A DNA stretch of 64,000 bases from Nitrospirota bacterium (lineage in GTDB: Bacteria; Nitrospirota; Leptospirillia; Leptospirillales; Leptospirillaceae): positions 1 to 64,000 of the forward strand of contig JAKADN010000004.1 in NCBI GenBank assembly GCA_021820445.1. The letters are read 5' to 3'. The notes under the pieces were generated by a model. The model made no database searches and was not told where the DNA came from. It saw nothing but the letters and a program-made list of their open reading frames with translations. The position numbers and the translations under genes were made by a program. Shown here piece by piece: positions 29,927-42,097 of the stretch. The stretch's first letter is position 1; each line of letters begins with the position of its first letter.

Positions 29927-30030
29927 GGGACCCCAGGGGAATCCGGGGCACACGCGATGCACCGCTACCGTTGCTTCCTTCCGGACCTGGCGGGGTTTAC
30001 GGGATCTCGTTGCCCGGAGCCTGGGGGCCC
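29927..30030 (-). ncRNA. ffs: Signal recognition particle RNA (4.5S type)
   Basis: A ~104-nt RNA whose ends pair along 11 bases (GGGCCCCCAGG with CCTGGGGTCCC, one mismatch). The apical domain carries the SRP core CAGGTCCGGAAGGAAGCA and, opposite the tip on the 3' side, GCGTGTGCCCCGG. This is the short 4.5S form without an Alu domain. It lies between tRNA-Ser(GGA) and dnaX, a commonly seen neighbourhood. Confidence 0.93.
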
Positions 30031-30063
30031 ATCGGTCCGCTCTCGCGAATGCGCCTTGTCAAA

Positions 30064-30156
30064 TGGCGGAGAGAGGGGGATTCGAACCCCCGAGGCACTT
30101 CTTAGGCACCTACACGATTTCCAGTCGTGCTCCTTCGGCCGCTCGGACATCTCTCC
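30064..30156 (-). tRNA. tRNA-Ser (GGA)
   Basis: A 93-nt class II tRNA with encoded CCA. The anticodon arm is CACGA-CTGGAAA-TCGTG, giving anticodon GGA (UCC/UCU codons). It has a long variable arm and T loop TTCGAAT. The acceptor stem is GGAGAGA/TCTCTCC with G73, the serine discriminator. Confidence 0.95.
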
Positions 30157-30293
30157 ACTCGAGGCGATCAAATGCAGAACATCCGATAATCATACCGTCA
30201 GGGACGATGGAAAACAAGGGGCCCGGAAAGATGGCCAGAATGGAAAATAGAAGATGAGAAACGGGATGGATGGCTTCCGGGCCGGTCCATGGA

Positions 30294-30545
30294 TCAGGGA
30301 AGAACGAGGACGCGGTCATTGTCGTGGATCAGGCCAAGGAGACCCTTCGCATCGATTGGAAAGACCCCCGGGCTGGAGCCGGACAGCGAAAAGGTCCGGT
30401 CCGGAAGAACCAATGGAGGTGACATTGGGTCGGAAAGGCTGGTCTTCTCCAGGTAGACGAGGGTGGACCCGGGACATTCCTCTTCGAGCGAGCCTATGAC
30501 TTCCCGGAGCCGGGCATCCGGATTCTGTCGGGTAAGGATGAGCAT
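30294..30545 (-). CDS. DsrH/TusB-like sulfur relay protein
   Basis: An 83-residue protein resembling DsrH/TusB. It starts MLILTRQNPDARLREVIGSL and ends with the typical VFPIDAKGLLGLI...DRVLVLP. Cys24 is the only cysteine and lies where many DsrH proteins have one. ATG 30545 has AGGA eight bases upstream. Last gene of an mscS-dsrE-dsrF-dsrH set. The assignment rests on size, order and weak sequence similarity. Confidence 0.65.
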   Translation of the reverse strand: MLILTRQNPDARLREVIGSLEEECPGSTLVYLEKTSLSDPMSPPLVLPDRTFSLSGSSPGVFPIDAKGLLGLIHDNDRVLVLP

Positions 30546-30555
30546 GTGGTCCGTC

Positions 30556-30906
30556 CTAAAAGAAGATCGTATGATCGAACCCTGCAATCAGCCGTCCGAG
30601 ATCCTTCGGGGGCAGGGGCTTCCCGCGGAGAGACTGGGAGGGGGGTGTCGGGAAGGGTTCGTAAAGGATTTCCGTTGCCATGTCGAAAAACATTCCGAGA
30701 AAGCGGTGGAGAACCTCTCCGTCCTCAAGGTCGAGAAGATCGTCCGGAGAGGAAAGAAGGAGCGCGTGGGCCTCCCGGAAAAGGTAGACGCTGACGGGTA
30801 TTTCACCTGCGATGAGGCCGAGCGCCGACCGTATGGCTTCGGCAGGGCGAGGATCATTGGCCGGGTCGGCCTTGATCATGAGCAGGGTCCTGTGTGAAGA
30901 AGCCAC
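30556..30906 (-). CDS. DsrF/TusC-like DsrE-family protein
   Basis: A 116-residue DsrE-fold protein without any cysteine, as is common for the DsrF/TusC subunit. Recognisable are RTLLMIKADPANDPRPAEAIRSALGLIAGEIPVSVYLF and the later helix FFDMATEILYEP. GTG 30906 is used because AAGGA lies six bases upstream, and it starts 10 bp after dsrE ends; a TTG at 30924 would overlap. It probably forms a heterohexamer with its two neighbours, as DsrEFH does. Confidence 0.65.
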   Translation of the reverse strand: MASSHRTLLMIKADPANDPRPAEAIRSALGLIAGEIPVSVYLFREAHALLLSSPDDLLDLEDGEVLHRFLGMFFDMATEILYEPFPTPPSQSLRGKPLPPKDLGRLIAGFDHTIFF

Positions 30907-30916
30907 GGAAATCCTT

Positions 30917-31234
30917 TCAGGCAAAGGACAGGAAGCGATCGCACCCCTCGATGATCTGGGTCAGCACCACGAGTCCGCAGAAGGTCGTCTTCCCGGGGTC
31001 CGGAATTTTACGATTTTGGGCCGCGTAGGCGCAGGTATACACTGACGCCCCCCGGTCGACCAGCTCATGAACCCAGGGTTGTGCCAGAAAGCGGGCGCCT
31101 TCGTCGAGAAGGTAAAGGTAGACTTCATCGCCAGAAGCGATGGCCGCGTCGGTGATCATGCGAACGGTCTCGCCGTCATGTCTGTCGGGGTGGGTTGAGA
31201 GAAGGATTCCAATTTTCATAGGCACCATTATCAT
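30917..31234 (-). CDS. DsrE/TusD-like sulfur relay protein
   Basis: A 105-residue DsrE-family protein: MKIGILLSTHPDRHDGETVRMITDAAIASGDEVYLYLLDEG, then RGASVYTCAYAAQNRK with Cys68, the position of the active persulfide cysteine in DsrE/TusD. ATG 31234 overlaps the mscS stop (ATGA); ATG 31219 is an alternative. DsrEFH/TusBCD complexes take sulfur from TusA; a TusA is encoded at 15293. Confidence 0.75.
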   Translation of the reverse strand: MIMVPMKIGILLSTHPDRHDGETVRMITDAAIASGDEVYLYLLDEGARFLAQPWVHELVDRGASVYTCAYAAQNRKIPDPGKTTFCGLVVLTQIIEGCDRFLSFA

Positions 31235-32157
31235 CCCGCAAGGCTTCCCGGCGCAAGAGGAGAAGCATTTCGGTCATGAGGTTCCGGTCCGTTTCCCTTT
31301 GGGAAGATCACGACATTGTGCGGATAGGGAAGATCGATTCCCGCCGCCTGGAACTCTCTCGCGATCTTGAAGTTCAAGTCAGAGAGGGTGGTGTGGCGAA
31401 GGGTGACATCGTTGATCCAGTAAACGAGTTCGAGGTTGAAGGATGAGGCGCCAAATTCGGTGAACCAGACTGCGGGCGCAGGGTCCGGAAGGATGTCGGG
31501 ATGGTTCAGGGCCAACCTTCGGAGAATGTCGACCGCCTTGTCGAGGAGTGAGGGATCCATCCCGATTCCGACCTTCAGATGCATGCGGGTCTTGGGATCC
31601 CTGTGGCTCCAATTGATGACCTTGTTGGCGATCAGATGCGCGTTGGGAATGATGATGGCGATGTTGTCGCGGCTCATGACGGTCGTTGATCGCCCCTTGA
31701 TCTCGACGACGGTTCCGAGAACCCCGTCTATCTCGATCAAGTCCCCGATTTGAATGGATTTCTCAAGGAGGATGACCACGAGCCCGATCATGTTTGCGGC
31801 GAGATTCTGAAGGCCGATGCCGATCCCGATGCCCAGGACCCCGAGGGTTCCTCCAAGAAACGAAAGACGGACGCCCAGATTGTCCAGGGCAATGACGATG
31901 AAAAGGGCGAAAACAAGATTGGCGGCGAAGGTCGACAAAAGACCCATCATGTGGCGCGTCTGGGGGGAGGATTGGGTCTGGGCCCTGGCGGTCAGGGTCC
32001 TTTTGAGGAAGAGGCGAAGAAAAAAGCCCAGAAGGACGATGAAGGAAAAATCGATCAGGCCGGCAATGGTGACCGGCGTTTTTCCCAGATGAAATAGAAC
32101 GAGGTCCCAGTTGGACCTGTCGCGTGGGCTGGAATGTCTGGCCAGTGAGCTGACCAC
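31231..32157 (-). CDS. MscS-family mechanosensitive ion channel
   Basis: A 308-residue small-conductance channel homologue. Three hydrophobic segments are visible (~30-50, ~75-95 and the pore helix GTLGVLGIGIGIGLQNLAANMIG), followed by the beta domain IQIGDLIEIDGVLGTVVEIKGRSTTV and the C-terminal alpha/beta cage. The glycine-rich pore helix and QNLAAN are family features. The start is GTG 32157 with no strong ribosome site. It is translationally coupled to dsrE, an unusual partner. Confidence 0.85.
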   Translation of the reverse strand: MVSSLARHSSPRDRSNWDLVLFHLGKTPVTIAGLIDFSFIVLLGFFLRLFLKRTLTARAQTQSSPQTRHMMGLLSTFAANLVFALFIVIALDNLGVRLSFLGGTLGVLGIGIGIGLQNLAANMIGLVVILLEKSIQIGDLIEIDGVLGTVVEIKGRSTTVMSRDNIAIIIPNAHLIANKVINWSHRDPKTRMHLKVGIGMDPSLLDKAVDILRRLALNHPDILPDPAPAVWFTEFGASSFNLELVYWINDVTLRHTTLSDLNFKIAREFQAAGIDLPYPHNVVIFPKGNGPEPHDRNASPLAPGSLAG

Positions 32158-32374
32158 TCCGAGGGAGAAAATGGGAGTCCTCCTTGTGTGAAGGGGTTTT
32201 CCGGGGAGACTGGAAGGCCTCCAGGTCAGCCTTCTGTATGATTATCCTGATTCGGGGTCCTCTGGTCCAGACTCAGGTCGGCTTGGGAGGTGTGATCATC
32301 GTCATCTTATGATAGAATTCATCCGCAATTGTCTAAAATGAATCTTTAGACCGGAATCCGGGATAGGAGCGTCC

Positions 32375-33433
32375 ATGCTTCGTTATCCAGAGAGCAAGAT
32401 ATCCAGCGCTGAAATCTTCCGCCTCGTTCTTCAACGGATGACGGAACTCGGATTTTCCTTCACTCCTATCCATTACGCCGTTGTTTACGAGTATGTCTCA
32501 GGCATCAACCCGGGGCTGTCGGAAGCCCTCGACTCTCTTGTCAAATCCGGAAATCCCCTCTCAGACAAGGATGTGGAAAGCATTTTTCTCAGATTCGTGG
32601 CTCCGGAATACATCCTCCCCCTGAACGACCATCGGGACTCTCTCACAAAGGAAATCCAGGAGCTGCTCGAAAAGATATCCCGGTCGACCTTGTCAACCAC
32701 CCATGAGGCCGAACGCGTTCAGAAGGGAATGGAATCCTATGGCGCTTCACTTGAGGAAAAAGGCATGGACAAGTCCACGCTCGAGTCGCTCGTCGAAGCC
32801 GTCCTCAAGGACACTCTTTCCATCAAGGAAAGTTCAGCCAGTCTGAGCTACGACCTCTCGGAAAGCCAGAAGAAAATCGACCTGCTGCAACGGGAGCTTC
32901 GGACAGCCCGGGCGGAGGCATTGATCGATCCTTTGACCGCGCTGTTAAACCGAAGAGGGCTCAAGGCGAGCATGGAGGAGCTTTTGTCGGGGTCCCTCCA
33001 TCTTGGACGGGAGATGGCGGTTTTAATGCTCGACATCGATCACTTCAAGGCAATCAACGATACGCATGGACATATGGTCGGAGACAAGGCGATTGTGGCT
33101 GTTTCGCGTATCCTCAAGATGTGTGTCAGGAATCCGGGAGATCTGACGGCGCGTGTCGGAGGGGAGGAGTTCGCACTGATCCTTCCCGGCGCATCCGAGA
33201 AGGAAGGATATGGGATGGCGGAGAAAATTCGCAAGTCCATCGAAAAGATCGAGATAACGAATGTGACAAAGCGTCAGAAGATCGGAGTCATGACCATCTC
33301 GATCGGTGTTGACGCCGCTCCTTTTGGCCCCGACTGGGAGGCAATGATGGAGCGGGCGGACAAGGCCCTCTATTTGTCAAAGGAGGCTGGAAGAAACAGG
33401 ACGACGGTCTTTGGCAAGGGAGCCATGGTCTGA
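32375..33433 (+). CDS. GGDEF-domain diguanylate cyclase
   Basis: A 352-residue cytosolic protein. The N-terminal ~180 residues are helical, with a coiled-coil run (LSESQKKIDLLQRELRTARAEAL) leading into the cyclase domain, which begins IDPLTALLNRRGL. GGEEF is at residues 262-266, with DIDHFKAINDTHGHMVGD upstream, so activity is expected. The upstream inhibitory site reads NPGD instead of RxxD, so product inhibition through that site is probably lost. No membrane span, hence a soluble enzyme; the input signal is unknown. Confidence 0.88.
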   Translation: MLRYPESKISSAEIFRLVLQRMTELGFSFTPIHYAVVYEYVSGINPGLSEALDSLVKSGNPLSDKDVESIFLRFVAPEYILPLNDHRDSLTKEIQELLEKISRSTLSTTHEAERVQKGMESYGASLEEKGMDKSTLESLVEAVLKDTLSIKESSASLSYDLSESQKKIDLLQRELRTARAEALIDPLTALLNRRGLKASMEELLSGSLHLGREMAVLMLDIDHFKAINDTHGHMVGDKAIVAVSRILKMCVRNPGDLTARVGGEEFALILPGASEKEGYGMAEKIRKSIEKIEITNVTKRQKIGVMTISIGVDAAPFGPDWEAMMERADKALYLSKEAGRNRTTVFGKGAMV

Positions 33434-33513
33434 TCTGTCCGGTATCGCAATGAGTGCCGACACATCCTTTGAGCTTTGAGACGGGGTTGAAAAAGGGGAA
33501 AATCTATCATGAA

Positions 33514-33606
33514 TGGCGGAGAGGCAGGGATTTGAACCCTGGGTAGGACTTTTGGTCCTACATCCGCTTAGCAGGCGGACGCCTTCGACCACTCGGCCAC
33601 CTCTCC
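33514..33606 (-). tRNA. tRNA-Ser (GCU)
   Basis: A 93-nt class II tRNA, CCA encoded. The anticodon loop CTGCTAA gives GCU, reading AGC/AGU. It has the long variable arm (GGATGTAGGACCAAAAGTCCTACCC region), T loop TTCAAAT and acceptor GGAGAGG/CCTCTCC. Confidence 0.95.
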
Positions 33607-33728
33607 AGGGGAAATTATCGGGTGTCTGTCGCTCGGGTCAGACGAAGAAGAATACCCCAATTCGGGATCGGGATTCAACTTTGATGGCATTGACACCTTC
33701 CGGAAAAATCCCGCTAAGAGTATCGGGA

Positions 33729-33814
33729 TGGCGGAGGGGGTAGGATTCGAACCCACGGAGCTTTCGCTCTACGGTTTTCAAGACCGCCGCCTTCGGCCGC
33801 TCGGCCACCCCTCC
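33729..33814 (-). tRNA. tRNA-Ser (UGA)
   Basis: An 86-nt class II tRNA, CCA encoded. The anticodon arm GCGGT-CTTGAAA-ACCGT gives UGA, reading UCA and other UCN codons. The variable arm is AGAGC-GAAA-GCT type and the acceptor is GGAGGGG/CCCCTCC. Confidence 0.95.
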
Positions 33815-33856
33815 GACTCTGGAAATTTTAAGATATCCATGAAAAAAAGACAAACC

Positions 33857-34711
33857 TCAATGAAGAACAGAGGGAGCCCGGACAGGAGATGGGGAGAGCT
33901 GCTGGGAGTTTTGGGGGGTCGCTGTTGACGAGGGGGGCCCAGGAGTGGGGGTGAGGAGCGGGTTGAACCCACTTGACGGAGATTTCTGGGATTTGTGTGG
34001 AGCCATTTCATGTTTGATGAAGGTGATCGATCGACGGATGCCTTCGTCCTTCGGGTCGAGTTTACGGGCCGACTCCTCCATCAGAAGCGCCTCCTGAAGA
34101 TAGCCTTCATGGGCTAAGGCCAGCCCCAGGATCATGCGCGCTCCCGCATCGGAGGGGCTGAGATCGATTGCTTTTTCCTCGGCAAATCGGGCATCCTTCC
34201 ATTGTCCCAGGGACGCGTAGGCCCATCCGGCCGCCTTCCATGCAGGCTCTCTCTTCGGATCTTTCTGGATGACAGCGTTTTCTTCCTCCAGTTCTCGCCT
34301 GAAATGGCCCGTGTTTCCTTCCGCGATACCAAGGCTGATTCGTGCGGTCAGGTTATCGGGGTCGAGAGTCAGGGCTCTCCGTTCCATCTCAATGGCTTTT
34401 CTGTTAAGTCCGCTTTTTCCGTAGGCCATGCCTGCCAGAGTGAAAACGATCGTGTAGTCCGGAAAGAGCTTGAAAAGGGGGGTGAGGATGGTCAGCGCCT
34501 TTTTCGGATGGTCGGACAGAATCTGTTGCGCGGCCTCCTGAACTTCCTTGCGCAAGAGGGGGGGGTAAGTCGGGTCGTTCAGGGGAAGGGCGAAAAGGGG
34601 TTCGCTCGTGGTTGTTAAACTGCTGAAAACCAAAAGGAATAAAGCGAGCCTGCGGACTAAGTGCCCCCAATCTTCCTTTTCATGGATAATGGGTCTTTCA
34701 GAAATTGTCAT
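33857..34711 (-). CDS. Exported TPR-repeat protein
   Basis: A 284-residue protein with an N-terminal hydrophobic segment (LALFLLVFSSLTTTSEPLFA, residues ~22-41) that looks like a signal sequence or anchor. At least four tetratricopeptide repeats follow, for example YTIVFTLAGMAYGKSGLNRKAIEMERRALTLDPDN and AGARMILGLALAHEGYLQEALLMEESARKLDPKD. The last 45 residues are rich in Pro, Ser and Thr. A scaffold role in the periplasm is likely; the partner is unknown. Confidence 0.72.
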   Translation of the reverse strand: MTISERPIIHEKEDWGHLVRRLALFLLVFSSLTTTSEPLFALPLNDPTYPPLLRKEVQEAAQQILSDHPKKALTILTPLFKLFPDYTIVFTLAGMAYGKSGLNRKAIEMERRALTLDPDNLTARISLGIAEGNTGHFRRELEEENAVIQKDPKREPAWKAAGWAYASLGQWKDARFAEEKAIDLSPSDAGARMILGLALAHEGYLQEALLMEESARKLDPKDEGIRRSITFIKHEMAPHKSQKSPSSGFNPLLTPTPGPPSSTATPQNSQQLSPSPVRAPSVLH

Positions 34712-34779
34712 GTCTCCAATTATGGGAAGAGTTTCTTAAAACGGCAAGTGTCAATCTTCAGTTTGGGTGAAGGGAGCCT

Positions 34780-35541
34780 GTGCACATGAAAATCAATGAG
34801 CCGAAGATTGCCGTCGTCACGGGCGCTTCTTCCGGGATCGGGGCCGCCACGGTCAGGGCCCTGTCTGATTGTGGATATCGCGTATATGGGGGGGCACGGC
34901 GTCTTGACCGCCTCGAACACCTCTCTCGGGAGACAGGGATGGTGCCGTTAGAGCTTGATGTCCGAAGCACCGAATCTGTTTCCACCTTTGCATCAAGGCT
35001 TCCCGGGACACTTCATGTTCTGGTCAATAACGCGGGAGGAGCCCTGGGGCTCGACCCCGTTCTCCAATGGGATGAAGCGGGATGGCTCGAAATGTATCAA
35101 AGCAATGTCCTTGGAACGGTCCGGATGGTCCGGGCCGTTTTTCCAGGGCTTCGCCGAAGCGGCCTGGGACACCTCGTCAATATCGGTTCCGTTGCCGCGA
35201 TTGAAACCTATCTCGGGGGAGCGGGGTATACGGCCGCAAAACATGCACTCCGGGCCGTCACGGAGACGATGCGCATCGAATGGCTCGGTGAGCCGGTCCG
35301 TATCACGGAAATCGACCCTGGACTTGTCGAAACAGAATTTTCCCTCGTTCGGTTTCAAGGCGATGCCGAAAGAGCAAAAAAGGTGTATGAAGGAATGACG
35401 CCCCTTTCCGCGGAAGATGTGGCGGAAGCTGTCGTCTGGGCCGTCACCCGCCCCCCTCACGTGAACGTGGACACCATTCTTCTCCGGCCCCTCGACCAGG
35501 CCCGGGTCGACCGGGTTTACAGAAGACAACCGCCTCCATGA
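34780..35541 (+). CDS. Short-chain dehydrogenase/reductase (YdfG-like)
   Basis: A 253-residue classical SDR. Cofactor motif VTGASSGIGAATV, then VLVNNAGGALG, NIGSVAA (Ser) and YTAAKHAL (YxxxK). The tail PLSAEDVAEAVVWAVTRPPHVNVDTILLRP is typical of YdfG/serine 3-dehydrogenase-type enzymes. GTG 34780 or ATG 34786; GAAGGGAG lies just upstream. Its stop overlaps the tadA start. Confidence 0.86.
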   Translation: MHMKINEPKIAVVTGASSGIGAATVRALSDCGYRVYGGARRLDRLEHLSRETGMVPLELDVRSTESVSTFASRLPGTLHVLVNNAGGALGLDPVLQWDEAGWLEMYQSNVLGTVRMVRAVFPGLRRSGLGHLVNIGSVAAIETYLGGAGYTAAKHALRAVTETMRIEWLGEPVRITEIDPGLVETEFSLVRFQGDAERAKKVYEGMTPLSAEDVAEAVVWAVTRPPHVNVDTILLRPLDQARVDRVYRRQPPP

Positions 35542-36014
35542 CACCCCGGGATGTTTTCTGGATGAAGGAGGCGCTCCTGCGTGCGCGAAATGCCATGGAT
35601 GAAGGGGACGTTCCCGTCGGAGCGATCCTTCTGCTGGGAGAGACAATCATCGGAGAAGGGTGGAACAGGGGGAGGGCAACGAATGATCCCACCGCACATG
35701 CGGAGATGCTCGCTATCCGGTCGGCGGCTTCGCGACTCGGCAACTATCGGCTGGCAGGGGCGTCCCTCTATGTCACCCTTGAGCCTTGTTTCATGTGTTT
35801 CGGCGCCATGCTCGAAGGGAGAATATCAAGGCTTGTCTTTGGGGCGAGAGAACCTAGGCGTGGGGTGGCGGGGTCGATCTACGATCTTCACAACGACCCC
35901 CGGCTTCACCACAGGATTGAGGTTGTGTCCGGGGTGCTCGAAGAGGAGTCACGGAGTCTTTTGCAGAATTTTTTCGAAAAAAAAAGGGAAGGAGAATATC
36001 CGGAAACTGTTTAG
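35538..36014 (+). CDS. tadA: tRNA-specific adenosine deaminase
   Basis: A 158-residue zinc deaminase that makes inosine at position 34 of tRNA-Arg. The active site is complete: His54-Ala-Glu56 (TAHAEMLAI) and Cys84-x-x-Cys87 (LEPCFMCFGA). TadA-type features include GAREPRRGVAGSIYDL. The last residues are Lys/Glu-rich. ATG overlaps the SDR stop (ATGA). Confidence 0.93.
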   Translation: MTPRDVFWMKEALLRARNAMDEGDVPVGAILLLGETIIGEGWNRGRATNDPTAHAEMLAIRSAASRLGNYRLAGASLYVTLEPCFMCFGAMLEGRISRLVFGAREPRRGVAGSIYDLHNDPRLHHRIEVVSGVLEEESRSLLQNFFEKKREGEYPETV

Positions 36015-36058
36015 ATTTTCCGAATCCCTCCTTCCCGCAGTGGAATGGGCGGTTCAAT

Positions 36059-36172
36059 CTAGAATCCGCCGAGGCCACCTTTCAGGGCATGGTCGATCTT
36101 TTCAAAGACGGCCATGAGAAGAAAGGGAAACGCGGCAAGAATCACAAAGGTGAGGTTTTTTGCACCACTCAT
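36059..36172 (-). CDS. 37-aa hydrophobic mini-protein
   Basis: A 37-residue product starting MSGAKNLTF with a hydrophobic core VILAAFPFLLMAV (about residues 10-22), then FEKIDHALKGGLGGF. An AGGAGAAAAAA ribosome site stands directly before the ATG. A sigma-54-like element lies 80-95 bp upstream on the same strand, and the gene of a sigma-54 activator ends 235 bp upstream. One membrane span or an amphipathic membrane-binding helix is likely. No family recognised. Confidence 0.6.
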   Translation of the reverse strand: MSGAKNLTFVILAAFPFLLMAVFEKIDHALKGGLGGF

Positions 36173-36251
36173 TTTTTTCTCCTCTTGATTTAAAAGATGA
36201 TGAAGGATCCTTAGGGAAGAAGAAAATGATTCCCTTCGGAATTTTTTATTA

Positions 36252-36267
36252 ATCAAGATCCGTGCCA
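36252..36267 (-). promoter_or_regulatory. Sigma-54-type -24/-12 promoter element
   Basis: On the minus strand the sequence is TGGCAC-GGATC-TTGAT, against the consensus TGGCAC-N5-TTGCA. The -24 half is perfect; the -12 half has TTGAT in place of TTGCA, so the normally invariant GC is not fully kept. It points to the 37-aa gene, with an expected leader of about 65-70 nt, and lies downstream of a sigma-54 activator gene. Confidence 0.5.
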
Positions 36268-36352
36268 ATGCTTTTCTTAGCGAAGGATGTTTTTTTATCT
36301 TGCAGAGGAAGGAATTTATGCGGAAGGAGAGTTTCGAGGCGCATGCGCAAGG

Positions 36353-36367
36353 GGAAACAACGTTTCC
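36353..36367. promoter_or_regulatory. Inverted repeat GGAAAC-AAC-GTTTCC, possible activator site
   Basis: A perfect 6-3-6 inverted repeat 86-100 bp upstream of the -24 element. Further GGAAAC half-sites occur near 36384 and 36415, and another palindrome, GCGCATGCGC, is at 36339-36348. The distance suits an enhancer for the neighbouring activator. Function inferred. Confidence 0.45.
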
Positions 36368-36407
36368 GGCTTGTGACATTTGATGGAAACCACGGTGGAA
36401 AAGGGTT

Positions 36408-37775
36408 TCAGGAGGGAAACGTCTTGCGGCGGTCCAGATTGTACTTCTTCATCTTCCGCCAGAGGGTGATCCGGCTCATCGAGAGTGAGTGTGCGGCGTC
36501 GGAAACCCTTCCCCGATGCTGGAGAAGGACTCTCTGGATCATGTCTTTCTCGACGGCTGCTATGGCTTCTTCGACATTTTTCGACCCCCGTGATCCGATG
36601 GTCTCGTTGGTAAAAGGACGGTCCGGTTCCTTTTTGAACAGGATCTCCTTGACCGGGTCGGGGATATTGTCCACTGTGACTGTCTGATCAATTGTCAAGC
36701 TCAGGCACAGGTCAACCAGATGTTTGAGCTCGCGTATGTTGCCTGGATAGGGGTAGTCGCAAAATCTCTCGACCAGGTCCGGCGAGAAGTCCGGGGCTTT
36801 TCGTCTGTGGCGGGCAGACCAGTTGCCCCGGAAGGTATGGATGAGAAGCGGAATCTCTTCCTGGCGATCCCTGAGAGGAGGAAGAAGGATGGTCATGCCA
36901 CGAAGGCGGTAGAAAAGATCCTCCCTCAGTCGGCCTGAAGAGAGAAGGTCTTCCGGGCTGACATTGGTGGCGGCAAGGATACGGACATCTATGGCATGTT
37001 TTTTTGTCTGTCCGATTCGTTCGACGATCCCGGTTTCCAGAAAACGAAGAAGCTTGGCTTGAACAGAAAGGGGGATATTCTCAAGTTCATCAAGCAGAAG
37101 TGTCCCTCCGTCTGCCTGGAGGAGTTTGCCGGTATAATCGGATGTTGCGCCGGTAAAAGCCCCCCGTGTATGTCCAAAAAGGGCATCGTCGACAAGGGAT
37201 TCGGGAACGACGGAGAGATCGAGCACGACAAACGGATTGTTTCTGCGCGGACTCAGTTCATGGATGCGCTGGGCGAGAACCTCTTTGCCTGTCCCCGTTT
37301 CACCGACAAGGAGAATGGGGATTGTCGTTTCGGCAATGCGGGCGAGAGTCGGGGCGAGGGTCGAGTGCCATGATCCTCTGGATTCGAACTGGTCCTGTCT
37401 CGAAGGCGGGGCGGACTCTTCGGAAGACGAGATCTGCTTCAATAGCCCTACGGTCTTACCACCTGAATCCAGGAGGGAATTCCTGATGTTGAACTCTCCC
37501 TGGACCTCCTTGAGGCAGGCTGCACCAAAAGGAGTTGTGTCCCCCTTGACCAGAGCAATATCCTCAATGCATTCGGCCGAACAGACCTTTCCTCTGAGTC
37601 CGCGGGCACAAGCCATTCCTTCGATTTCCGGGACATTCTTGAAGAGAAGCTTCCTTGCCGCATCGGACACCCACTGTATCCTGTAGTCCGTTCCGATCAG
37701 AAGGAATGCAGAGTTCGTGGAGTCTGCGATATGGCTGGAAAGGAGTCGGTAAAGGGCATCCTGCTTGGTGGACAA
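36408..37775 (-). CDS. PAS-containing sigma-54-dependent transcriptional activator
   Basis: A 455-residue NtrC-type activator without a receiver domain. Residues 15-125 form a PAS-like sensor (FLLIGTDYRIQWVSDAARKLL) with four cysteines at 56, 65, 69 and 87, suggestive of a metal or redox site. The AAA+ domain has Walker A GETGTGKE, the sigma-54 contact loop GAFTGA, Walker B LLLDELENI and the R-finger region EDLFYRLRG. The C-terminus is a Fis-type HTH (VSDAAHSLSMSRITLWRKMKKY). The inducer is unknown. A candidate target promoter lies immediately downstream. Confidence 0.9.
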   Translation of the reverse strand: MSTKQDALYRLLSSHIADSTNSAFLLIGTDYRIQWVSDAARKLLFKNVPEIEGMACARGLRGKVCSAECIEDIALVKGDTTPFGAACLKEVQGEFNIRNSLLDSGGKTVGLLKQISSSEESAPPSRQDQFESRGSWHSTLAPTLARIAETTIPILLVGETGTGKEVLAQRIHELSPRRNNPFVVLDLSVVPESLVDDALFGHTRGAFTGATSDYTGKLLQADGGTLLLDELENIPLSVQAKLLRFLETGIVERIGQTKKHAIDVRILAATNVSPEDLLSSGRLREDLFYRLRGMTILLPPLRDRQEEIPLLIHTFRGNWSARHRRKAPDFSPDLVERFCDYPYPGNIRELKHLVDLCLSLTIDQTVTVDNIPDPVKEILFKKEPDRPFTNETIGSRGSKNVEEAIAAVEKDMIQRVLLQHRGRVSDAAHSLSMSRITLWRKMKKYNLDRRKTFPS

Positions 37776-37825
37776 TGTCGGCTCCGAAGAGATGATGAGC
37801 GCCTTCAGGCCCCCGGGATGGGAAT

Positions 37826-37915
37826 TGGCGGAGAGAGAGGGATTTGAACCCCCGCTGGGGTTCCCCCCAGAGTTGATTTCGAGTCAACCGCCTTCAGCCT
37901 CTCGGCCATCTCTCC
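37826..37915 (-). tRNA. tRNA-Ser (CGA)
   Basis: A 90-nt class II tRNA, CCA encoded. The anticodon arm GTTGA-CTCGAAA-TCAAC gives CGA (UCG). The variable arm is CTGGGGGGAACCCCAG-like, T loop TTCAAAT, acceptor GGAGAGA/TCTCTCC with G73. It is the fourth serine isoacceptor on this strand within 8 kb. Confidence 0.95.
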
Positions 37916-40348: not shown

Positions 40349-41212
40349 ATGGAAAAGAGTGTGGGGAGTGGTGTTCCATGGTTGCTTTCAGTCAGTCTCC
40401 TGACACTCTTGTCCGGGTGCTCCTCCGGCTCTCTCTTTCACTCCTTCTTCAGTCGACCAGGAGGCTCCTCTTCCTCCGACGCACGTTTCCAGAAAGACTA
40501 TCCGGAGCTCAAGGCACTCCTCAGGGACAACCACTTCCGGAAGGCGCTGGTATGGGTGCGGGACTGGGAAAAGACACGGACGCTTTCCGAAGACAACCAG
40601 CGTCTTCTTCGGAAGGACGAACGGACCATACGTCTCGTCGGGGCGGCTTATTACATGGGAGTCGCTCGAGAGAGGCGCAAATCGGGCCGTCTCAAAGGAG
40701 CGCTCTCGGCTCTGGAAACAGCACGGGCATTGACGCCGGAAGATCCGACCCTCCGGACTGAAATCGAAAAAACGAAAGCCCGGGTCATCGTTTCAGGCCA
40801 GGATGGGCAGGATTGGGGGGAACTTCTTGGGAAACTTCTGGCGCTAAAGGCAAAAAATCCAAAAGATGACTCTCTCGACCCCACGATCGGTTGGGCTTAC
40901 GGGAAGCTGTCGGAAAGCGAATACATGGCAGGCCGTTATTCATTGGCCCTTGGCCATGCACGAAAGGCGTTGTCCTATAAGAAGACGGATGCGCTTGCTC
41001 TCAGGGTTCGGGACCGTGTAGAAGAAATGGTCAGGACTCTCGTAGATCGCGCGGAGAGGGAATACAGACGCCATCAATATGCGATGTCCGCCCGGGATCT
41101 CGGAAAGGCCCTGGAGGTCGACCCTGAAAGTCGGAGAGCGCGCAAGGACTGGCAGATTCTCTCGGAGACGCCGGGCGCGGTTCAGAATGCGGAAGCCAGA
41201 AATTTCAAATGA
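40349..41212 (+). CDS. TPR-like lipoprotein
   Basis: A 287-residue protein with a lipoprotein signal (WLLSVSLLTLLSGC, lipidated Cys near 24). The mature part is helical with TPR-like pairs: RRKSGRLKGALSALETARALTPED, EYMAGRYSLALGHARKALSYKK, EYRRHQYAMSARDLGKALEVDPES. ATG 40349 follows AAGGAGG with five bases of spacing. A periplasmic scaffold is likely. It is 15 bp upstream of the dapF homologue. Confidence 0.75.
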   Translation: MEKSVGSGVPWLLSVSLLTLLSGCSSGSLFHSFFSRPGGSSSSDARFQKDYPELKALLRDNHFRKALVWVRDWEKTRTLSEDNQRLLRKDERTIRLVGAAYYMGVARERRKSGRLKGALSALETARALTPEDPTLRTEIEKTKARVIVSGQDGQDWGELLGKLLALKAKNPKDDSLDPTIGWAYGKLSESEYMAGRYSLALGHARKALSYKKTDALALRVRDRVEEMVRTLVDRAEREYRRHQYAMSARDLGKALEVDPESRRARKDWQILSETPGAVQNAEARNFK

Positions 41213-41227
41213 AATGAGGGTGTCATA

Positions 41228-42097
41228 ATGAAATTTGATTTCGTTAAAAGCCACGGGCTGGGGAATGATTACATCGTCATGGTGAAAGGGGAGGGGACCC
41301 CTCCTTTGACCGAGGACAATATCCGTCTTATTTGCGACAGAAACTACGGTGTGGGATCGGATGGAATTCTTTTGCTTGAAAAAGACACGCCGCCCTTCGG
41401 TCTTCGAATTTTCAACCCCGACGGCTCGGAGGCCGAAAAAAGCGGAAACGGGCTACGGATCTTTTCGAAATTCCTATTCGAATACGGCTATGCAAAAGAC
41501 AAGGAGTTTCCGATAGACACAGCCGGAGGACGTGTCAAATCAACGGTGCGGACCGACCCTTCGAACCGGGTTGTCGCCGTGCTGGTGGAGATGGGGACCT
41601 ACACCTTCGATCCCTCGGCTGTGGGAATCAAGGACCGGAGCACCCCCATGATTGAGGAGACCTTGCAGATCAAGGGCGATGTTTCGGTAAAGGGATCCGC
41701 CCTGTCGGTCGGCAATCCGCATTTTGTTTTTTTTGTAGATGCGATCGATGAGCCCTTCATTCGGGAATTCGGGACTCTGATAGAACATCACCCCCTTTTT
41801 CCCAGACGAATCAATACGCAGATGGTGCGGGTTGTCGGTCCGAACGAGATCGAGATCAGGATTTGGGAGCGGGGAGCGGGATACACCCAGGCCTCGGGGA
41901 GCAGCTCTTGTGCAGCCGCCTCTTGCGCCGTCTCCCTGGGAAAAGTGAAAAGTCCGGTGACGGTTCGCATGCCGGGGGGTGTCCTGCACATCGAAGTGGG
42001 AGAGGATAAGTCGCTCCGCATGGAAGGGCCGGTCGAAGAGGTGATGACAGGATTTTTCTCAAGGGATTTTATGGACAGGCTGACGAAGAAGACGTGA
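41228..42097 (+). CDS. dapF: DapF-family (diaminopimelate epimerase) homologue with Ser in place of both catalytic Cys
   Basis: A 289-residue protein of full DapF length. Family motifs are present: HGLGNDY, YGVGSDG, FNPDGSE, GNPHFV, RRINTQMV and WERGAGYTQA, including the asparagines and the Glu-Arg pair that hold the substrate. The two catalytic cysteines of DapF (E. coli Cys73 in CGNGARC, Cys217 in ACGSGAC) are replaced: Ser72 in KSGNGLRIF and Ser223 in ASGSSSC. Codons are AGC at 41441-41443 and TCG at 41894-41896. It may be a DAP epimerase using serines, another racemase/isomerase, or a non-catalytic paralogue. The name follows the family, not proven activity. Confidence 0.82.
   Translation: MKFDFVKSHGLGNDYIVMVKGEGTPPLTEDNIRLICDRNYGVGSDGILLLEKDTPPFGLRIFNPDGSEAEKSGNGLRIFSKFLFEYGYAKDKEFPIDTAGGRVKSTVRTDPSNRVVAVLVEMGTYTFDPSAVGIKDRSTPMIEETLQIKGDVSVKGSALSVGNPHFVFFVDAIDEPFIREFGTLIEHHPLFPRRINTQMVRVVGPNEIEIRIWERGAGYTQASGSSSCAAASCAVSLGKVKSPVTVRMPGGVLHIEVGEDKSLRMEGPVEEVMTGFFSRDFMDRLTKKT

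Follow-up and report, generated by a model that had tools for sequence, protein, structure and literature searches.

The 64,000-nucleotide stretch of DNA analyzed here (the window) contains a dapF homologue in which serine replaces both catalytic cysteines, and we consider it likely that this gene encodes a working epimerase that converts LL-diaminopimelate (LL-DAP) to meso-DAP, a cell-wall building block, using a Ser/Ser acid-base pair. Two-base catalysis by cysteines is textbook knowledge for DapF, which is also an antibiotic target. Both residues are regarded as essential, since abstraction of the alpha-proton (pKa about 29) calls for a thiolate, and serine is a far weaker acid or base than cysteine, with a pKa that on its own is unsuitable. 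The same Cys-to-Ser exchange is nevertheless fixed across a large bacterial enzyme family, which argues that the Ser/Ser form is not a broken gene but probably functions, with altered chemistry. We found no published description of a Ser/Ser DapF in the open-access literature searched, and annotation pipelines label these proteins DapF, leaving the absence of the catalytic pair unnoticed.

The dapF reading frame (41228-42097, + strand) encodes 289 residues and is the sole gene of its genome that matches PF01678 or TIGR00652. Its product matched TIGR00652 over residues 4-277 with 227.7 bits (cut-off 114.65), as expected of a full-length DapF, and PF01678 matched each of its two halves, in keeping with the pseudosymmetric DapF fold. 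The translation reads KSGNGLRI and GYTQASGSSSC at the places where DapF usually has CGNG and ACGTG. In alignments with DapF proteins of solved structure (Anabaena 9mro, B. anthracis, P. aeruginosa and Arabidopsis), Ser72 (codon AGC, 41441-41443, +) fell on the first catalytic cysteine and Ser223 (codon TCG, 41894-41896, +) on the second. These positions correspond to Cys73 and Cys217 of H. influenzae DapF and to Cys75 and Cys224 of the Anabaena enzyme, and both are serine in 45 of 45 clade members. The product thus lacks the cysteine pair that acts as the thiol/thiolate acid-base of the family. A predicted structure (mean pLDDT 93, pTM 0.90) put both serines where the canonical cysteines reside, Ser72 at the N-terminus of helix 73-85 and Ser223 at that of helix 224-236, and its top PDB matches were the DAP epimerases 9mro, 8qzy and 1bwz (TM 0.78-0.87). 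Translation, alignment and model therefore all bear out the initial annotation, which had read both catalytic cysteines as replaced. That annotation had also named two ways in which it could be wrong. Sequencing error at the two codons is excluded because the same serines occur in 45 distinct sequences from independent assemblies, some of them closed, and misalignment with the true cysteines lying elsewhere was ruled out by the alignments with solved DapFs, the clade alignment and the structural model. Another cysteine standing in for the pair was also ruled out; Cys36 and Cys228 are conserved in the Ser/Ser clade, but Cys228 is common in Cys/Cys enzymes as well. The bifunctional DapF/glutamate racemase model (NF038284) was rejected at 51.7 bits, far under its curated cut-off of 350.

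The substrate site has been left intact. In Anabaena DapF, DAP is contacted by the side chains of Asn13, Asn66, Asn164, Asn197, Glu215 and Arg216 and by the hydroxyl of Thr226 (PMC12039745). The first six are identical in all 45 Ser/Ser proteins, and the position of Thr226 holds serine or threonine; the equivalents of the six in the window protein are Asn13, Asn63, Asn163, Asn196, Glu214 and Arg215. The earlier statement that the asparagines, the Glu-Arg pair and the overall length are kept is upheld. Other positions separate the Ser/Ser proteins cleanly from the remaining classes, namely Tyr15, Ser44, Lys71, Leu76, Ile78 and Ser226; all other classes have Phe in place of Tyr15, Cys in place of Ile78 and Gly in place of Ser226. 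This set of class-discriminating residues argues that the Ser/Ser class is a rebuilt active site and not a point lesion. Tyr15 (41270-41272, +) is present in 45 of 45 Ser/Ser members and also in L182, a Ser/Ser protein from a viral collection, whereas the 46 Cys/Cys and Ser/Cys proteins compared all have Phe at this position. Lys71, which adjoins Ser72 (41438-41440, +), occurs in 45 of 45 proteins of the compared set and is Gln in L182, a finding that weakens the candidacy of Lys71 as an obligatory activator of Ser72. Ser226, three residues after Ser223 (41903-41905, +), is found in 42 of 45 Ser/Ser members and is not kept in L182. Because Tyr15 alone among the discriminating positions checked is retained in L182, it is the best candidate for a helper residue. 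Judging from the motifs GND-Tyr and GNP-His, Tyr15 may be pseudosymmetric to His165; a profile alignment of the two DapF halves matched around Ser72 and Ser223 and left the N-terminal motif unaligned.

The thiol/thiolate pair of canonical DapF sits at the N-terminal ends of helices, and no basic side chain comes closer than 4 Å (PMC12039745). Single Cys-to-Ser mutants of the related enzyme PddB keep less than 0.1% of activity (PMC8225329), the same is reported for M. tuberculosis DapF as cited in that paper, and Cys-to-Ala exchange abolishes the activity of C. glutamicum DapF (PMC5296763). Ser/Ser chemistry is surprising in light of these engineered mutants. However, activity is known for a same-fold enzyme that is naturally Ser/Cys, a 4-hydroxyproline 2-epimerase whose serine is positioned by extra hydrogen bonds (PMC4113996), and we therefore favor a Ser/Ser pair revived by clade-specific residues. 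We propose that two serine hydroxyls would take the place of the thiol/thiolate pair in a cofactor-free 1,1-proton transfer from LL-DAP to meso-DAP. The substrate would be bound by Asn13, Asn63, Asn163, Asn196, Glu214 and Arg215 as in ordinary DapF, its alpha-carbon would be flanked by Ser72 and Ser223 on helix N-termini that face each other, and clade-specific polar changes (Tyr15 always; usually Lys71, Ser44 and Ser226) would rescue the chemistry. What we infer here is DAP epimerization by the protein, the role of the two serines as its true acid/base groups, and their activation by Tyr15 or other residues.

An alternative is that DAP is epimerized, but that the proton is carried by another residue (Tyr15, His165 or Lys71) or by a water relay. 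The unsuitable pKa of serine alone speaks for this idea, as does the replacement of Phe by Tyr15 in every Ser/Ser protein and in 0 of 46 others, with Lys71 and Ser226 being specific to the clade too. Yet Ser72 and Ser223 sit at the helix N-terminal acid/base positions in the model, the Lys71 position is Gln in L182, and the Ser/Cys 4-hydroxyproline epimerase does employ serine as an acid/base group (PMC4113996). We therefore regard a carrier other than the serines as unlikely and retain the Ser/Ser pair as the preferred mechanism.

Comparison with known systems places the protein close to DapF (TIGR00652; H. influenzae, E. coli, Anabaena and C. glutamicum), with which it shares the full-length match, the fold, the two-domain layout, the DAP-binding side chains and a metabolic place between DapL and LysA/MurE. 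It differs in having serine for both catalytic cysteines, Tyr15 for Phe and usually Lys71 and Ser226, and the window gene lies outside the lysA-dapA operon. The H. influenzae variants C73S and C217S (PDB 2q9h and 2q9j) are both structural matches of the model and carry the same substitutions one at a time; unlike the natural proteins, they are engineered single mutants meant to block catalysis and have no compensating changes. Members of the proline racemase superfamily (the Ser/Cys 4-hydroxyproline 2-epimerase B9JQV3 and the Ser/Thr trans-3-hydroxyproline dehydratase B9K4G4; PMC4113996) share the fold class and the use of serine as one acid/base group, but belong to another family with other substrates, have at least one non-Ser partner, and include no described Ser/Ser epimerase.

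The gene content of the window genome (G000) shows where such an activity is needed. DapL makes LL-DAP and LysA needs meso-DAP, and the genome encodes DapA, DapB, DapL and LysA and lacks Ddh (meso-DAP dehydrogenase), so that epimerization of LL-DAP is needed. Its lysine cluster reads argF-argG-argH-lysA-dapA-dapB-(fumarylacetoacetate-hydrolase-like gene)-dapL, with the arg names taken from ORF reading and the lys and dap genes from NCBIfam, and contains no dapF; DapL scored over its cut-off (594.8 versus 593.25). In many Cys/Cys Nitrospirota dapF adjoins lysA, whereas in the window genome this slot is empty and the Ser/Ser gene is located elsewhere. The initial annotation had advised a search for a second, Cys/Cys DapF or a meso-DAP dehydrogenase, and neither was found in the window genome with TIGR00652, PF01678 or PF16654. 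Ddh was also absent from the Ser/Ser and Ser/Cys genomes tested, save for two weak partial matches in family f10, and control genomes were positive. The window genome and the near-complete genomes G015 and G017 have one DapF each, as do seven single-contig genomes of families f10 and f18 (G089, G148, G178, G246, G250, G252 and G320); in all of these genomes DapF is Ser-type by motif. The window genome is 88.7% complete, and relatives that are 99% complete agree with it. As side observations, the fumarylacetoacetate-hydrolase-like gene between dapB and dapL occupies L071:7579-8403, and the genome has two lysA genes over the cut-off, on G000:C14 and G000:C103 (L071 and L072).

The strongest link of Ser/Ser dapF to the DAP pathway is provided by the 1.3-Mb Pseudomonadota genome G734. 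There, dapB, dapA, the Ser/Ser dapF and a gene for a DapL-like aminotransferase run head to tail; dapA and dapF overlap, dapF and the aminotransferase gene abut, and an aspartokinase gene lies alongside on the opposite strand. The aminotransferase scored below the DapL cut-offs (401 versus 507). No other DapF and no Ddh were found in this genome.

We looked for further examples in two phyla, the Nitrospirota and the Pseudomonadota. TIGR00652 was run against 61 relatives, and the catalytic residues were taken from the DNA. All full-length DapF proteins found in the window's own family (f1) are Ser/Ser. The form also occurs in f10 genera such as g14 and in f18, and is the sole DapF of other Nitrospirota families besides that of the window. 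Three genomes of family f7 (G026, G035 and G043) carry one Ser/Ser and one Cys/Cys DapF each, and the other Nitrospirota families read are Cys/Cys. A degenerate DNA pattern for KxGNGLRI, which split Ser/Ser from Cys/Cys loci without error on the loci then compiled, matched 148 of 396 Nitrospirota genomes, including a few chance matches (e.g. G298 and G336). In the Pseudomonadota sample it matched 26 of 399 genomes. Sequence confirmed Ser/Ser DapFs in seven of these; the remaining matches look like other genes or coincidence. Because the pattern requires Lys71, it undercounts forms such as L182. A search of the IMG/VR viral collection returned one Ser/Ser protein, L182, and one fragment, and a plasmid search gave only distant DapFs and no match at 60% identity or more. 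The initial annotation had treated the substitution as a local oddity; it instead marks a large subfamily, and an independent Ser/Cys form exists as well. The viral-collection gene, with its Gln71, lies at L182:2480-3325 near a serine-recombinase-like ORF.

At least six Pseudomonadota genomes (G455, G459, G543, G555, G683 and G771) encode a Ser/Ser protein beside a Cys/Cys DapF. With the three f7 genomes, they suggest that some Ser/Ser members may act otherwise, and the paralogue in the two-form Pseudomonadota may have another role; the neighbors seen there are not lysine genes but encode a urea transporter, a LysE-type exporter and a ring-cleavage dioxygenase. Extended to the whole clade, this would mean that the Ser/Ser protein racemizes or isomerizes an amino acid other than DAP, with an unrelated enzyme supplying meso-DAP wherever Cys/Cys DapF is absent. 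DapF-fold relatives with other substrates do exist (O-ureidoserine racemase, PddB and PhzF). On the other hand, 45 of 45 proteins keep all distal-DAP ligands, among them the Glu-Arg pair by which the second amino acid end is recognized. Moreover, Ser/Ser is the sole DapF of closed genomes that lack Ddh, and the gene stands in the G734 operon with dapB and dapA. A different substrate for the clade as a whole is thus rather improbable. Among the three options first offered, altered chemistry acting on DAP fits best, given the intact ligands, the sole DapF where one is needed and the G734 operon; a different substrate is kept mainly for the two-form Pseudomonadota, and a pseudo-enzyme is unlikely.

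The tree of Ser/Ser forms recommended at the outset was built from 92 sequences. All 45 Ser/Ser proteins, from the Nitrospirota and scattered Pseudomonadota, fell on one side of a branch (support 100/100), and eight Ser/Cys proteins formed a separate clade (100/100) far from them. Both clades persisted when the trait columns were removed and L182 was added (SH-aLRT 99 and 100). Since the two clades lie far apart, serine at the first catalytic position would most simply have arisen at least twice. Most Ser/Ser pairs have dN/dS values of about 0.04-0.12, much like Cys/Cys DapF, which corresponds to strong purifying selection. The claim of selection rather than decay therefore stands, on clade-wide conservation, dN/dS of about 0.05 and the coordinated changes at other active-site positions.

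These values also bear on whether the gene is a pseudo-enzyme or is decaying without a catalytic role. Both textbook catalytic residues are gone, and several metagenome-assembled genomes (MAGs) of the same genus lack the gene. No DapF was found in seven of 14 such MAGs (G001, G003, G005, G006, G008, G010 and G011), when their summed incompleteness predicts about three. The gene directly upstream of dapF (40349-41212, +; a 287-residue reading from ATG with a lipoprotein-like N-terminus) adjoins dapF also in G002, G004, G009 and G012, and the seven DapF-less MAGs have no clear match to it either. In these MAGs, then, either the entire region is absent from the assembly or was left unbinned, or a subgroup has truly lost it. 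Against decay stand the low dN/dS, the intact frames, a single clade across phyla, a wholly conserved substrate site and the fact that genomes in need of a DapF have no other, and we consider a non-catalytic protein very improbable.

Eight f10 genomes, none of them belonging to g14, have a Ser/Cys protein (L144-L151) as their sole DapF. These proteins resemble the Ser/Ser class in having a natural Cys-to-Ser exchange at the first catalytic position and in being the only DapF of their genomes. They differ in keeping Cys at the second position, in having Phe15, in forming a separate branch of the GVPH / TYERGVE type and in their gene order; the two loci annotated (L176 and L177) have dapF within lysA-dapF-dapA-dapB. 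C. glutamicum DapF is shut off when its two catalytic cysteines join in a disulfide, and H2O2 shuts it off as well (PMC5296763). Neither Ser/Ser nor Ser/Cys proteins can form this disulfide, and redox is a possible selective reason for losing the cysteine pair. We suspect that f1 comprises Leptospirillum-like iron oxidizers and f10 Nitrospira-like nitrite oxidizers; if so, both live at high redox potential. As a tentative and broader proposal, to which we give somewhat less than even weight, a large natural clade of DAP epimerases would abstract the alpha-proton without cofactor by means of two serine hydroxyls, activated by a rebuilt site of Tyr15 and its neighbors. Cys/Cys DapF would have been displaced in these families or have turned independently into Ser/Cys, perhaps because neither form suffers disulfide shut-off in strongly oxidizing chemolithotrophs. 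A clade that epimerizes DAP with serines would escape thiol-reactive and possibly aziridine inhibitors as well as redox switching, and would make it possible to test directly how an alcohol can serve an enzyme as the base.

Some further observations were made along the way. Within the Ser/Ser clade, Ser72 is encoded by AGY in f1, f7, the Pseudomonadota and L182, and by TCN in f10 and f18; this change of serine codon class affects a conserved residue of the active site and may have had Cys or Thr as an intermediate. The genome G683 encodes a third DapF-like copy (L167; G683:C1:3397112-3397891) that combines a first-position Cys with a second-position Ser and has a diverged motif and a very long branch. 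Finally, the tRNA-Ser genes of the window cluster on its minus strand: the four isoacceptors found (GGA, GCT, TGA and CGA) all fall in a span of 8 kb (29928-37915) beside the small SRP RNA.
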